From NCBI RefSeq assembly GCF_004323185.1, contig NZ_NAPS01000001.1, forward strand, positions 610,736 to 673,253: 62,518 bases of DNA. Direction: 5' to 3'. The position numbers and the translations under genes were made by a program. Shown in pieces: positions 5,987 through 56,370 of the stretch; position 1 is the stretch's first letter; the number at the start of each line of letters is the position of its first letter. The notes beneath the pieces are model-generated. The model was not told where the DNA came from. It searched no databases and saw only the letters and a program-made list of their open reading frames with translations. This stretch comes from Westiellopsis prolifica IICB1 (GTDB lineage: Bacteria > Cyanobacteriota > Cyanobacteriia > Cyanobacteriales > Nostocaceae).

Positions 5987-6372
5987 TAGGGATTTGTGTG
6001 AGTTGCAACCATGAATAATTCCGAAGCGATCGCCGTCGGGAGTCACGTTTCAATCCCTAATAGGGATTTGTGTGAGTTGCAACGAACGCGCACTAAATTG
6101 ATAGACGTGATTGACGATGCGTTTCAATCCCTAATAGGGATTTGTGTGAGTTGCAACATGAAATTAGAAATCTGGGTAAATGTCGTAGAAGTTTCAATCC
6201 CTAATAGGGATTTGTGTGAGTTGCAACTTCAGCAGTATGTAATAGAATCCACAATGGATTTCGTTTCAATCCCTAATAGGGATTTGTGTGAGTTGCAACT
6301 TTGGTGACATCTCCCGCATCTGGTGCGATCGCTATGTTTCAATCCCTAATAGGGATTTGTGTGAGTTGCAAC
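5987..6372 (-). CRISPR. CRISPR array: five full 37-bp repeats plus one truncated repeat
   Basis: Five identical 37-bp repeats lie at 6047-6083, 6121-6157, 6191-6227, 6263-6299 and 6336-6372. A 23-bp truncated repeat is at 5987-6009. There are five spacers of 33-37 bp. On the minus strand the repeat starts GTTGCAAC and ends AGGGATTGAAAC, which would give the ATTGAAAC 5' tag typical of cyanobacterial type III and I-D arrays. I therefore read it as transcribed on the minus strand, with the oldest end at low coordinates where the truncated repeat lies. No cas gene is in the window, so processing would depend on Cas proteins encoded elsewhere. Confidence 0.95.
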
Positions 6373-11493: not shown

Positions 11494-12855
11494 CTACTGA
11501 AGAGACTTCCCGACAGCACAGACAACACGAAAACCAATATTGTAGAAGATGTAGTCGCGCTCCGCCCTAAGGTCGTAGTAGCGGGACGCGGAACGGCAGT
11601 ACTTAGGAAGGTCGATCCAAGAACCGCCCCGCAGTACGGCATTTATTCGTTTTTGAAAAAGATCATCATTATTATCAAACCAAGGAGTACCATCTGTAGG
11701 CGCACTTTTATAGTTATCATGCCAATCGTCGAGACACCATTCCCATAGGTTTCCGTGCATATCGTAAAGTCCAAAATAATTGGGCGGAAAACTTCCTACT
11801 GGCGTTGTTTGCCTTCTATAATTTCCCTCGATTCCATCACCGTAAACATAGGTAGCATTATAATTTGCTACCTGATCTGTGATTGTATCGCCAAAGTAAA
11901 AAGGAGTCGTCGTACCTGCACGACATGCATATTCCCATTCTGCTTCGCTGGGTAGTCGATAATTACGACTTGTTTTTTGGGAAAGTCTAGCACAAAATTC
12001 TACCGCATCGTACCAAGAAATCTTCTCTACAGGAAGACGATCATTACCCTTGAAGTAAGACGGTCTTAGTTTTAACTCTCTATTGACCGGAGGACAAGAA
12101 TTGACAACTCTATGCCATTGTTCTTGAGTGATGGTATATTTCCCCATAAAGAAGGTTGGGACTGTTACGTGATGTACGGGGCGTTCAGAATCTCTACTTT
12201 CTTCCTCATTAGCATAAGCGCCCATCAAAAATGTATCACCAGGAATTTCAACCATCTCTAGCTTGACACCAAACCCCAAATCCTCTACAAAATAATTAGC
12301 TTGATTGTTGTAAAAATTACTTTTAATTATAGATTTTCCAGAAGAATCCCTTTCTACAGATAATTTCACTGTTTGGAAATCAAATGTTTGCAATTTTAAG
12401 GAAGAATTTTCTTTTGGTTTATTTATATAATTACTGTTTACGCCTGCTTTTATAAGTGCTGCAATAATATCATCAACAACTTTATCAAGTCCTTTGGAAG
12501 TATTGGATGCAAGTTTGCCAGCAATAATCGGAGAAAAGTCAAAAACTTTCTGATATGAAACATTATGCCAAATTGGCAGTATTACTTTTCCAAACTTTAT
12601 TTCCTTCTGCACAAGCCCTTCTAACTCAGACTTTGGCCATGGCTTGCTAATGAAATTAGGGCTGATGACAATTATTCCAAACCTGGATTCTGAGAGTCCT
12701 TTATTAATTGACTCACTTAAGTTGTCTCCTACTGTCAAAGAAAATTCATCATACCAAACACGATATCCTTTGTTTTGCAATTCTTTAGCTAGTGGTCTGA
12801 CAAAATCTTTATCTTCACTTGCGTGACTTATAAATATGTCATGTTCATAACTCAT
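11494..12855 (-). CDS. TIR-domain protein with C-terminal FGE-sulfatase/C-type-lectin-like domain; likely DGR target
   Basis: Residues 1 to about 135 are a TIR domain (HDIFISHASEDKDFV at the start). KPWPKSELEGL carries the conserved glutamate, about residue 77, that serves NAD hydrolysis in enzymatic TIRs. After a linker, residues about 185-450 are a formylglycine-generating-enzyme-like fold (FLMGAYANEEESRDSERPVH, YRLPSEAEWEYACRAGT, GLYDMHGNLWEWC). This fold carries variable regions in many cyanobacterial DGR targets. The end (VLRGGSW ... NIGFRVVCAVG) is the canonical position for such a region and has the expected base bias. No reverse transcriptase or template repeat is in the window. Inference: a diversified ligand sensor coupled to a TIR effector. 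Start ATG has only a weak Shine-Dalgarno. Confidence 0.85.
   Translation of the reverse strand: MSYEHDIFISHASEDKDFVRPLAKELQNKGYRVWYDEFSLTVGDNLSESINKGLSESRFGIIVISPNFISKPWPKSELEGLVQKEIKFGKVILPIWHNVSYQKVFDFSPIIAGKLASNTSKGLDKVVDDIIAALIKAGVNSNYINKPKENSSLKLQTFDFQTVKLSVERDSSGKSIIKSNFYNNQANYFVEDLGFGVKLEMVEIPGDTFLMGAYANEEESRDSERPVHHVTVPTFFMGKYTITQEQWHRVVNSCPPVNRELKLRPSYFKGNDRLPVEKISWYDAVEFCARLSQKTSRNYRLPSEAEWEYACRAGTTTPFYFGDTITDQVANYNATYVYGDGIEGNYRRQTTPVGSFPPNYFGLYDMHGNLWEWCLDDWHDNYKSAPTDGTPWFDNNDDLFQKRINAVLRGGSWIDLPKYCRSASRYYDLRAERDYIFYNIGFRVVCAVGKSLQ
11542..11616 (-). other. Candidate DGR variable region (core)
   Basis: The 25 codons between the conserved GGSW and NIGFRVV blocks are unlike the rest of the gene. 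Sixteen of 25 end in C, with runs of TAC, GAC, ATC, TCC and CGC codons, and GC is about 57% (43 of 75) against an AT-rich gene. This is what adenine-specific mutagenesis of AAC codons produces. The template repeat, which would show A at the changed positions, is not in this window. Confidence 0.6.
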
Positions 12856-14240: not shown

Positions 14241-14315
14241 GAAAACAAAAAACCCGGAACCTTGGTTAAGTTCCGGGTGCTGACGTTTCATCGACATGAC
14301 ACTTTACCCGGAACT
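14241..14315 (-). promoter_or_regulatory. Transcription attenuator 2 of aroF
   Basis: Three pairing segments are visible on the minus strand. Segment 1 is AGTTCCGGGT (14315-14306), inside the end of leader peptide 2. Segment 2 is ACCCGGAACT (14278-14269). Segment 3 is GTTCCGGGT (14259-14251), followed by a T-rich run. Segments 1 and 2 pair perfectly over 10 bp (antiterminator). Segments 2 and 3 form a 9-bp terminator stem. The leader stop codon sits at segment 1, so a ribosome that finishes the peptide should cover it and favour termination. Confidence 0.85.
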
Positions 14316-14363
14316 TATTCTGGGCCAAAAATAAAAGTAAAACCAGCTACCGAAGTAAATCAT
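14304..14363 (-). CDS. Aromatic leader peptide 2 of aroF (19 residues)
   Basis: The peptide is MIYFGSWFYFYFWPRISSG. Nine of 19 residues are Phe, Tyr or Trp, eight of them within residues 3-12 and Trp at 13. AAGGAG lies 12 nt upstream of the ATG, a rather long spacing. The run of aromatic codons followed by overlapping pairing segments is the signature of ribosome-mediated attenuation. Scarcity of any of the three aromatic aminoacyl-tRNAs should stall the ribosome and open the operon. Confidence 0.85.
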   Translation of the reverse strand: MIYFGSWFYFYFWPRISSG

Positions 14364-14381
14364 GACGATGGGATTCTCCTT

Positions 14382-14464
14382 AAAAAAACAAAAACCGCAG
14401 AGTTCGCTCTGCGGTTCACCGGGCGGTTTCCATTAGGAAACTGAATTCACTCCCGGTGAACCGC
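14382..14464 (-). promoter_or_regulatory. Transcription attenuator 1 of aroF
   Basis: Segment A GCGGTTCACCGGG (14464-14452) lies in the last codons of leader peptide 1. Segment B CCCGGTGAACCGC (14423-14411) is its perfect 13-bp complement. The terminator stem ACCGCAGAG/CTCTGCGGT (14415-14407 with 14402-14394, loop CGAA) shares its first bases with segment B and is followed by TTTTTGTTTTTTT. A:B pairing therefore excludes the terminator. A small hairpin GTTTCC/GGAAAC lies between A and B. Confidence 0.85.
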
Positions 14465-14503
14465 CCTAAACCAATAAAAAAAGTAGAAGTTACTGCTAAA
14501 CAT
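14447..14503 (-). CDS. Aromatic leader peptide 1 of aroF (18 residues)
   Basis: The peptide is MFSSNFYFFYWFRAVHRE. It has five Phe, two Tyr and one Trp, seven of these packed in residues 6-12. Its stop codon TGA (14449-14447) follows segment A of attenuator 1 directly. The Shine-Dalgarno is weak (GAAAG about 11 nt upstream). It is independent in sequence from leader 2 but has the same logic. Confidence 0.8.
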   Translation of the reverse strand: MFSSNFYFFYWFRAVHRE

Positions 14504-14550
14504 AACGCGAGGTGCTTTCTTGAAAAAATTAATCTAAGCCTATATCCAAG

Positions 14551-14579
14551 AACATAACAGACGATTTGATTATAGTCAA
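14551..14579 (-). promoter_or_regulatory. Candidate aroF promoter
   Basis: On the minus strand TTGACT (14579-14574), a 17-bp spacer and TATGTT (14556-14551). A transcript would start near 14543, about 40 nt before leader peptide 1. A TATAAT overlapping the -35 (14574-14569) is an alternative -10. Confidence 0.5.
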
Positions 14580-16149: not shown

Positions 16150-16995
16150 ATGAGAGAGCTGGAGCGGTATTATCGGGTATTAGAGTTGGAGCCTGGAGCG
16201 ACTTTAGAGGAAGTGAACCAGGCTTACAAAGATTTGGCTTTTATTTGGCATCCCGATCGCATCCCCTTAGATAACCAGCGTCTGAGAGAAAAGGCGATCA
16301 AAAAGTTACAAGAAATTAACGAGGCTAGAGAACAATTACGCTCTCTCAAAACCAAGCATCAAGTTCCCCATCATTCTCATCACTCCTATCAATCCCGTCA
16401 ATCTCGTCAACCGAATCAATCTCATCAACCGAATCAATCCCATCAAACTCATCAACCGAATCAATCCCATCAAACTCATCAACCGAATCAATCCCATCAA
16501 TCTCATCAAACCCATCAAACCCATCAATCCCATCAAACCCACCAATCACCCCCACCGAAAAAGCCACAACCACAAACTACGTATTCTTCAACAAACCCTC
16601 AATCACCAAACTACGAACCACCCAAGCAAAACCCAGACTTGAGTGGTCAAGATTTCAGCAGCGCCAATTTAAGCAATAAAGACTTATCTAGCAGAAACAT
16701 GAGTTACGCCAACTTGAGCGGTGCTAATCTCAGTGATACTTTTATGCACAAAGTCATCCTCAGAGGTGCGGATTTATCTGAAGCCAATTTATTTAGAGCC
16801 AACTTACTTTTGGCAGATTTGCGAGAAGCCAATCTCCGAAATGCTAACTTGATTGGTGCTGACTTGAGTGGGGCTGATTTGCGGGGTGCTGACTTGACAG
16901 GGGCGCGTGTTCGTTCTGGCGATCGCTTACTTGTAAAATTGATTGGTGCTAACCTCAGTGGTGCGATTATGCCCGATGGCAATGTTCACGACTGA
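16150..16995 (+). CDS. J-domain / pentapeptide-repeat protein with His-Gln-rich linker
   Basis: Residues 1 to about 68 are a DnaJ J domain (YYRVLELEPGATLEEVNQAY, HPD motif in FIWHPDRI), so it should stimulate an Hsp70 partner. Residues about 75-150 are an unusual linker made of repeats such as HQPNQSHQTHQ, encoded by iterated CATCAATCC-type units. Residues about 165-280 are pentapeptide repeats (A[DN]LSxx), which form a right-handed beta helix. The 281-residue architecture is known from cyanobacteria. Client and cellular role unknown. Downstream SDR gene follows after 28 bp. Confidence 0.85.
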   Translation: MRELERYYRVLELEPGATLEEVNQAYKDLAFIWHPDRIPLDNQRLREKAIKKLQEINEAREQLRSLKTKHQVPHHSHHSYQSRQSRQPNQSHQPNQSHQTHQPNQSHQTHQPNQSHQSHQTHQTHQSHQTHQSPPPKKPQPQTTYSSTNPQSPNYEPPKQNPDLSGQDFSSANLSNKDLSSRNMSYANLSGANLSDTFMHKVILRGADLSEANLFRANLLLADLREANLRNANLIGADLSGADLRGADLTGARVRSGDRLLVKLIGANLSGAIMPDGNVHD

Positions 16996-56136: not shown

Positions 56137-56370
56137 TTAATAACCTCTAAATCCTACACAAAGACTAAAATTTTCACCAAACCATGCGAAATCTAACTCA
56201 GTTTCAGTGAAATTGAAACCAATAGAAGCAGCAAAATCAACTATTTTAGTTTTGTCCCAATCCCAGATACCAAAAACACCTTTATTAGAGCATTTATTAT
56301 AATATTGCTCGTAGAGGACTTGATCTGAATTTAAAAGCTCATAAAAAGCATTTACTTGTTCTAGTGACAT
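56137..56370 (-). CDS. Nif11-like domain protein
   Basis: This 77-residue protein matches the Nif11 leader-like fold: MSLEQVNAFYELLNSDQVLY, then IVDFAASIGFNFTETELDF. Nif11 domains occur as leaders of ribosomally made natural products and as stand-alone proteins. Here no Gly-Gly cleavage site and no Cys/Ser/Thr-rich core follow, and there is no modification enzyme nearby, so a free regulatory or orphan form is more likely. Confidence 0.75.
   Translation of the reverse strand: MSLEQVNAFYELLNSDQVLYEQYYNKCSNKGVFGIWDWDKTKIVDFAASIGFNFTETELDFAWFGENFSLCVGFRGY

Follow-up and report, generated by a model that had tools for sequence, protein, structure and literature searches.

Analysis of the DNA upstream of the aroF gene of Westiellopsis prolifica IICB1 revealed two short open reading frames rich in aromatic codons, L1 and L2, lying in series on the minus strand. 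Each is followed by an intrinsic terminator, and the last codons of each can pair instead with the 5' arm of that terminator. We conclude from sequence comparison and folding models that aroF is very probably controlled by two ribosome-mediated transcription attenuators in series, which sense aromatic starvation. The conservation of the pair, the constraint on its codons, the covariation of its helices, its geometry and its link to aroF are shown by the analysis. As judged from sequence and modelling, the locus has short ORFs rich in end-product codons, a terminator before the gene, an exclusive antiterminator that would be covered by a ribosome at the stop codon, and a downstream gene of the pathway concerned; equilibrium folding is adverse.

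Organisation of the aroF upstream region

The features of the locus are given in Table 1; the window is the whole stretch of 62,518 nucleotides that was analysed. A preliminary description had reported both leader ORFs with their aromatic counts, and an intrinsic terminator after each, and all of this was confirmed; a T run follows each terminator. It had also put the perfect complements of the last leader codons at 13 and 10 bp; the first length is correct, and the second is 11 bp. Each stop codon was said to stand directly at the pairing segment. In L2 the two overlap by one base; in L1 they are separated by AG, the end of the final codon GAG. The antiterminator complement takes in part of the terminator 5' arm in L1 and all of it in L2. 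At the candidate promoter, an alignment of 78 upstream regions of near relatives contains a TCTTGAC block conserved at 80% or more in each column, and a loose −35/−10 pattern is found in 51 of the 78.

Table 1. Positions of the leaders, pairing segments, terminators and gene in the window
Feature	Position	Strand	Remarks
Candidate promoter, TTGACT-17-TATGTT	14551..14579	-	Ends 47 nt before leader 1
Leader ORF 1 (L1), MFSSNFYFFYWFRAVHRE	14447..14503	-	8/18 aromatic; present in 78/78 near-relative and 67/67 class loci
Antiterminator 1, 5' arm, last codons of leader 1	14452..14464	-	13 bp perfect with 14423-14411; covaries
Antiterminator 1, 3' arm, overlapping terminator 1 5' arm	14411..14423	-	Complementarity and covariation
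Intrinsic terminator 1 with U tract	14382..14417	-	Hairpin 14417-14392, then T run; helix covaries
Leader 2 start region, 5' side of proposed protector helix	14353..14370	-	Duplex with 14303-14288, −15.2 kcal/mol
Leader ORF 2 (L2), MIYFGSWFYFYFWPRISSG	14304..14363	-	9/19 aromatic; present in 78/78 near-relative and 65/67 class loci
Antiterminator 2, 5' arm, last leader 2 codons and first stop base	14306..14316	-	11 bp perfect with 14278-14268; covaries class-wide
Leader 2 post-stop segment, 3' side of proposed protector helix	14288..14303	-	Duplex with leader 2 start region
Antiterminator 2, 3' arm, identical with terminator 2 5' arm	14268..14278	-	Complementarity and covariation
Intrinsic terminator 2 with U tract	14242..14278	-	Hairpin 14278-14252, then T run; helix covaries
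aroF, type I DAHP synthase, 291 aa	13167..14042	-	Lacks N-terminal ~69 positions of PRK08673 profile

The product of aroF is identified as a DAHP synthase, which catalyses the first step in making aromatic amino acids, by the models NF006421 (406 bits) and TIGR01361 (367 bits), and it matches PRK08673 from profile position 70 on, the N-terminal part being absent. The lack of a visible allosteric domain had been taken to fit control at transcription. The absence itself is borne out, but the paralogue L082 of the same genome, which has no leader, also lacks the N-terminal PRK08673 part; its absence therefore does not set the attenuated copy apart, and lends weak support to transcriptional control. 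Another paralogue, L083, has this part. No leader passed the ORF filter at the two own-genome paralogues (L164, L165). Chlorogloeopsis fritschii is likewise described as having three DAHP synthase homologues (PMC7693272).

A terminator-like hairpin lies at the end of aroF (13212-13188, minus strand), its stem overlapping the last codons, and given this hairpin the gene may be monocistronic. Palindromic repeats of similar type occur in the gap between terminator 2 and aroF (14160-14141, AGACGCGATATATCGCGTCT) and behind aroF (13075-13048, GTAGAGACGCGCCATGGCGCGTCTCTAC), and look dispersed. Elsewhere in the window there are five copies of a CRISPR repeat of the Rfam family CRISPR-DR5 (6047-6372, minus strand) and a 453-aa ORF (11494-12855, minus strand) which, from reading, appears to carry a TIR domain and a formylglycine-generating-enzyme-like domain. 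The ORF at 16150-16995 (plus strand) reads as an N-terminal J-domain-like part, an HQ-rich repeat and pentapeptide-like repeats; its repeat gives rise to long overlapping open frames on the opposite strand.

Conservation of the leader pair

The near-relative set was drawn from 538 homologues, of which the best 80 were used; to judge by their titles, most of these are Nostocales. The window was added to them, and three loci without upstream DNA (L007, L027, L054) were left out. Both leaders are present in all 78 sequences, that is, in 77 near relatives from among these best 80 and in the window. Across the class, 77 of 194 genomes, counting the own one, contain an aroF orthologue at E ≤ 1e-90. 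Upstream DNA was taken from 73 other genomes, omitting G003, G056 and G059, in which contig ends lie close by; some of these genomes may share species with the near-relative loci. Both leaders occur in 65 of the 67 class orthologues of at least 65% identity, and the other two (L156 and L157, of one family) have leader 1 only. The conservation of leader aromatic codons in relatives that the preliminary description had predicted is therefore found in both sets. In six homologues at 54–56% identity the pair was absent from all six. One of these six (L158, in G020; about 55% identity) has a single leader-like ORF (MKNSQFWYSFTFRSATGVRHRSG) and behind it a strong terminator, which may represent a lone attenuator or one of another construction.

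A terminator-like hairpin with a T run follows every one of the 145 L1 and 143 L2 leaders. The spacing from the L1 stop to the L2 stop has a median of 148 nt (5–95% range 143–203; 143 loci), and that from the L2 stop to the aroF match is variable, at 76 to 660 nt (143 loci).

Covariance models were built from the class-wide elements, R2 for leader 1 and R3 for leader 2. In the own genome each gives one strong match, R2 with 109.6 bits (E 3e-20; next match E 0.34) and R3 with 93.8 bits (E 4e-18; next match E 0.06). Among the 194 class genomes, most of the matched ones having supplied sequences for the models, R2 is found in 73 and R3 in 69, at one place each at E ≤ 0.01. In 70 of the 73 genomes R2 shares its strand with the AroF match and lies 137–370 nt ahead of it; the same holds for R3 in 67 of the 69, at a distance of 21–202 nt. 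Three genomes have R2 without an AroF match. At a contig end of G105 an aroF-like start is preceded by both elements, the contig of G124 stops after L2, and G112 has leader 1 fused directly to a broken aroF remnant (L188), leader 2 being absent. Conversely, AroF occurs without R2 in G003, where the gene is cut by a contig end, and in the six distant homologues. R2 without R3 was found in G010, G045 and G059, which represent the L156/L157 family, and in G112.

A sample of 194 genomes drawn from the phylum, which overlaps with the class set, gave R2 matches in 27. The two R2 matches outside the class (in G278 and G330, with E 0.001 and 0.006) and an additional weak R2 match within G290 proved to be terminator-like hairpins without an aromatic leader, and were rejected. 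So was the second-best own-genome R2 match, at 56157-56248 of the window (minus strand), which by eye has no leader–terminator layout. The third R2 match in the genome falls on leader 2 itself (14246-14354, minus strand; 22.6 bits, E 0.5), and is perhaps the trace of a duplication.

Both elements fold better than shuffled sequences, with a z of −3.66 for L1 (none of 200 shuffles as good) and −3.28 for L2 (1 of 200). We also screened for the layout as such: a leader in which a nine-codon stretch with at least five aromatic residues ends at a distance of 5 to 9 codons from the stop; a terminator of −10 kcal/mol or better, starting 14–42 nt behind the stop; and an overlapping antiterminator duplex of −14 or better. 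With these limits, chosen after both elements were known, the screen returned exactly L1 and L2 from the 12 aromatic ORFs of the window. It gave no match in 35 segments of 20 kb from the own genome, searched on both strands, which serve as a control of 700 kb out of 7.3 Mb and contain 70 aromatic ORFs, none with a terminator. Screens of 700 kb for leaders of 15 other residue classes likewise gave no full match.

Codon usage in the leaders

Comparison of reading frames points to constraint at the level of codons. In the aromatic block of L1, frame 0 holds 359 aromatic codons out of 396 (66 loci), against 279 (sd 4.8) after shuffling of codon positions within columns; the corresponding values for L2 are 418 of 512 (64 loci) against 310 (sd 5.9). 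The other frames hold 129 and 94 of 396 in L1 and 177 and 117 of 512 in L2. There is no in-frame stop in the block of either leader, where about 15 would be expected in each. Since F, Y and W interchange at most leader positions, what is kept is the class of codon and not the peptide. The pair had been described as covering all three end products. This applies to each leader separately, F, Y and W all being present in 142 of 145 L1 and 137 of 143 L2 loci. The distance from the last aromatic codon to the stop has a median of 21 nt, with quartiles of 21–21, in both leaders.

The leaders may be translated in vivo: the constraint on their codons is strong, but a Shine–Dalgarno-like motif precedes L1 at only 6 of 145 loci, and L2 at 75 of 138. 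In 5 of 143 loci no ATG, GTG or TTG occurs 54–81 nt before the end of the L2 stop codon, and in L097 and L100 there is no start codon within 40 codons.

Covariation of the helices

Covariation was analysed in alignments of 87 L1 and 85 L2 sequences, made up of 21 of the 78 near relatives with 66 of 67 (L1) and 64 of 65 (L2) class loci. The number of double changes was compared with that in 500 shuffles, which ignore relatedness, and in six slid registers, which keep it but favour a structure drawn from one sequence. In antiterminator 1, double changes occur in 10 of 15 pairs, a number reached by 1 of 500 shuffles, and in 88 cells, against a shuffled mean of 30.6 and 13–35 in slid registers. 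The core of terminator 1 has double changes in 5 of 7 pairs and in 14 cells, against 1.3 in shuffles and 0–2 in slid registers. For leader 2, the count of cells exceeds the shuffled mean in both helices, at 69 against 32.3 for the antiterminator (slid registers 5–47) and 52 against 20.0 for the terminator (slid registers 2–21). The numbers of pairs with double changes are not above those of shuffles, being 5 of 11 in antiterminator 2 (a count reached by 258 of 500) and 4 of 9 in terminator 2 (86 of 500), and the outer pairs of antiterminator 2 are poorly kept. Antiterminator and terminator helices of both leaders thus covary, as the preliminary description had anticipated for the two stems.

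In the near relatives alone the sequences are too alike and the signal is small; antiterminator 2, for example, has 4 double-change cells against 2.0, which 43 of 500 shuffles reach. These alignments had 74 rows for L1, 4 of the 78 segments being identical to others, and 77 of 78 for L2, where L026 failed the terminator pattern. Individual loci illustrate the coupling of peptide end and RNA partner. In L022, L035, L042 and L057 a change of HRE to HWE accompanies that of CACCGGG/CCCGGTG to CACTGGG/CCCAGTG, so that both sides of the helix change together. Leader 1 has diverged furthest in L155 (G057), where ACCCAA/TTGGGT stands in place of the terminator core ACCGCAG/CTGCGGT and the leader arm has changed to match.

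Ribosome position and folding

The consequences of ribosome position were modelled on RNA ending before the terminator 3' arm, with the stretch under the ribosome held unpaired. In the main setting, the edge of the ribosome was placed 8 nt past the first A-site base (A+8), and 145 L1 and 143 L2 loci were analysed. The predicted occupancy of antiterminator 1 is 0.93–0.95 for an A site up to 24 nt before the stop, falling to 0.64 at 21 nt, 0.18 at 18 nt and 0.00–0.11 later. That of antiterminator 2 is 0.62–0.85 up to 15 nt before the stop, 0.19 at 12 nt and 0.01 thereafter. The aromatic codons occupy positions −36 to −21 from the stop in L1 and −42 to −21 in L2, and are rare from −18 on (0–11% per position). 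From these positions and the modelled boundaries, the aromatic run ends at the boundary in L1 and two codons short of it in L2. The L1 boundary depends on the footprint assumed: with the edge at A+12 it moves up, the occupancy being 0.43 with a stall at −24 and 0.04 at −21, the last aromatic codon, so that stalls at these positions would have a partial effect or none. For the window's own L1, the A+12 setting predicts 0.52 when the last sense codon occupies the A site. In the untranslated state, the truncated-RNA model gives an antiterminator occupancy of 0.93 for L1 and 0.59 for L2.

Full-length RNA at equilibrium behaves differently, in a way adverse to the switch. For L2, the mean pair probability of the terminator exceeds 0.5 in 96–140 of 143 loci in every state. 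For L1 it does so in 99–107 of 145 loci in the free and early-stalled states, and in 143 of 145 with the ribosome on the final aromatic codon and 141 with it on the stop. With the terminators prevailing at equilibrium in most loci, the switch must be a kinetic one, in which the antiterminators take effect by being the first to form; attenuators usually work in this way.

A probable start-codon helix in leader 2

The start region of L2 has a second potential partner in the segment behind its own stop codon. In the 61 of 65 class loci for which an L2 start codon was found, this region pairs better with its own 16 post-stop nucleotides than with those of other loci, at −7.54 against −6.36 kcal/mol, a difference reached in none of 200 permutations, which ignore relatedness. 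Control segments lying deeper in the leader or upstream by 40 nt gave no such signal (52–59 of 200), and the segment just upstream of the start a weak one (5 of 200). Shifting the post-stop segment by 8 or 16 nt left a weak signal (7 and 1 of 200), and by 24 or 32 nt none. For L1 no signal was obtained at the start codon (116 of 200), and the segment just upstream of it gave a weak one (5 of 200).

The helix would cross the antiterminator and so exclude it when the leader is untranslated, a possible protector role of the kind known from the three-state attenuator of E. coli trp. It is weak in part of the loci, for example L132, L138, L146–L148 and L151. For the window's own L2 the truncated model shows hardly any of it (0.1 pairs, with the antiterminator at 0.97 when free), and so predicts no protection there ahead of terminator synthesis, though it is present in the full-length fold of the same element. 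Overall, we regard the L2 protector as likely for the group. As L1 gave no signal at the same place, the two leaders do not appear equivalent.

Alternative explanations

Since every aromatic codon starts with T and T runs are common beside terminators, low-complexity T-rich DNA might by chance be read as aromatic codons. The probability of this is negligible, given the count of 359 and 418 in-frame aromatic codons against 94–177 in other frames, the absence of screen matches in 700 kb and the class-wide conservation. A switch operated by a bound protein or ligand, such as a T-box or riboswitch, would also present alternative structures before a biosynthetic gene, and the short ORFs would then be incidental; T-boxes bind tRNA and use no leader peptide. 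We consider this very improbable, because the ORFs are constrained at the codon level, the last aromatic codon stands at a fixed distance from the stop, and an Rfam scan at gathering thresholds gave no match at 14241-14579, the matches in the window being to CRISPR-DR5 only.

The remaining alternatives assign a function to the products of the leaders. The nascent peptide could itself stall the ribosome together with a free aromatic amino acid or other ligand, as an arrest peptide that signals excess and not lack. TnaC is a precedent for such a mechanism, and the peptides encoded here are aromatic-rich with conserved residues after the run (VH.., ..SG). Those C-terminal residues, however, sit in the antiterminator arm and change together with their RNA partner in the HRE to HWE loci, and F, Y and W swap at most positions, unlike in a fixed arrest sequence, which renders arrest improbable. 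The conserved function might instead be one of the terminated leader RNAs or peptides in trans, more than the attenuation of aroF, as two short terminated transcripts would arise and a leader peptide with a trans function, peTrpL, is reported from Sinorhizobium (S. meliloti) (PMC7298713). Against this, the peptide is loosely kept, and in the 194 class genomes, searched at E ≤ 0.01 under filtering that may miss the weaker matches, no element was found away from aroF except at the aroF remnant and contig ends. A function in trans as the main reason for conservation is thus quite improbable; trans action could take place alongside attenuation.

A model for serial attenuation

Serial attenuation by translating ribosomes is the reading that we prefer. 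RNA polymerase would traverse the two leaders in turn, leader 1 first, with ribosomes translating each of them. When Phe-, Tyr- or Trp-tRNA is scarce, a ribosome would halt in the aromatic run, leaving the leader end free to pair with the terminator 5' arm, and the resulting antiterminator would let transcription continue. With charged aromatic tRNAs the ribosome would reach the stop codon and cover the antiterminator 5' arm, so that the terminator forms and transcription ends. As aroF would be transcribed only if both attenuators are passed, their effects may multiply. The two should differ when they are not translated: the helix between the start codon and post-stop segment of leader 2, crossing the antiterminator, would tend to cause termination, whereas leader 1, which has no such helix, would read through.

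Pursued further, this difference suggests a composite gate of two unlike attenuators responding to the same three amino acids, class-wide in cyanobacteria. Leader 1 would be open by default and closed only when a ribosome finishes the leader; leader 2 would be closed by default through the helix that sequesters its start codon, and open only while a ribosome is stalled. Then aroF would be on only if translation can start and, at the same time, aromatic tRNAs are in short supply. We offer this proposal tentatively, as one rather more apt to fail than to hold; if true, it presupposes close coupling of transcription and translation in cyanobacteria.

Relation to known systems

Ribosome-mediated attenuation, single aroF attenuators and tandem attenuators for two signals are already known. 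With attenuators of the trp and pheA type the cyanobacterial pair shares a short ORF containing end-product codons, an intrinsic terminator and an alternative pairing set by ribosome position; it differs in comprising two elements in series, in having all three aromatic residues in each leader and in that no protector was detected for L1. Nearest in function is the aroF gene of Corynebacterium glutamicum, described as having the leader-peptide attenuator aroR, with Phe-Tyr-Phe (PMC4046766, PMC11802643), and according to a review Phe limitation raises transcription and Tyr is irrelevant. As described, aroR is likewise a ribosome-stalling attenuator before a DAHP synthase gene, but it has one leader, is presented with no mention of Trp and belongs to another phylum. 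The Acholeplasma uORFC-13-1 motif before aroF, reported with 24 representatives from one genus and environmental sequences (PMC8632094), similarly combines a uORF containing a Phe-coding U run with a terminator before a DAHP synthase gene; it is single and, as described, concerns Phe only.

More than one attenuator before amino acid genes has also been described, with two predicted attenuator units in the aromatic supraoperon of Streptococcus pneumoniae (PMC1173090) and double T-boxes in Firmicutes (PMC9413887). In mgtCBR of Salmonella, the tandem attenuators mgtM and mgtP sense ATP and proline, a case termed singular by its authors (PMC3641672). There, two leader ORFs, each within an attenuator, share one transcript; the two cyanobacterial leaders likewise lie on one strand before one gene. 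The signals in mgtCBR are described as different, whereas the cyanobacterial leaders contain the same three residues and have an intrinsic terminator each. A 2016 paper states that there were no reliable data on an attenuation mechanism in cyanobacteria (PMC4833913). The preliminary description knew of no established double aromatic attenuator in these organisms, and the part of the literature covered here contained no report of a cyanobacterial leader-peptide attenuator or of a same-signal twin; attenuation of a DAHP synthase gene as such is known in Corynebacterium.

Biological significance

Leader 1 of the candidate attenuator pair, which covariation and codon evidence support, is present in 73 of 194 class genomes, and leader 2 in 69. 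A twin with the same signal raises the question of its use: it might sharpen the response, weight Phe/Tyr separately from Trp, or verify that translation initiates. The L156/L157 family, with leader 1 only, offers a natural test of what the second attenuator contributes. The finding is of practical relevance to the engineering of aromatic compounds in cyanobacteria. If the proposed mechanism is true, cyanobacterial ribosomes must follow RNA polymerase closely, and entry into the shikimate pathway in these bacteria would be controlled partly by RNA.
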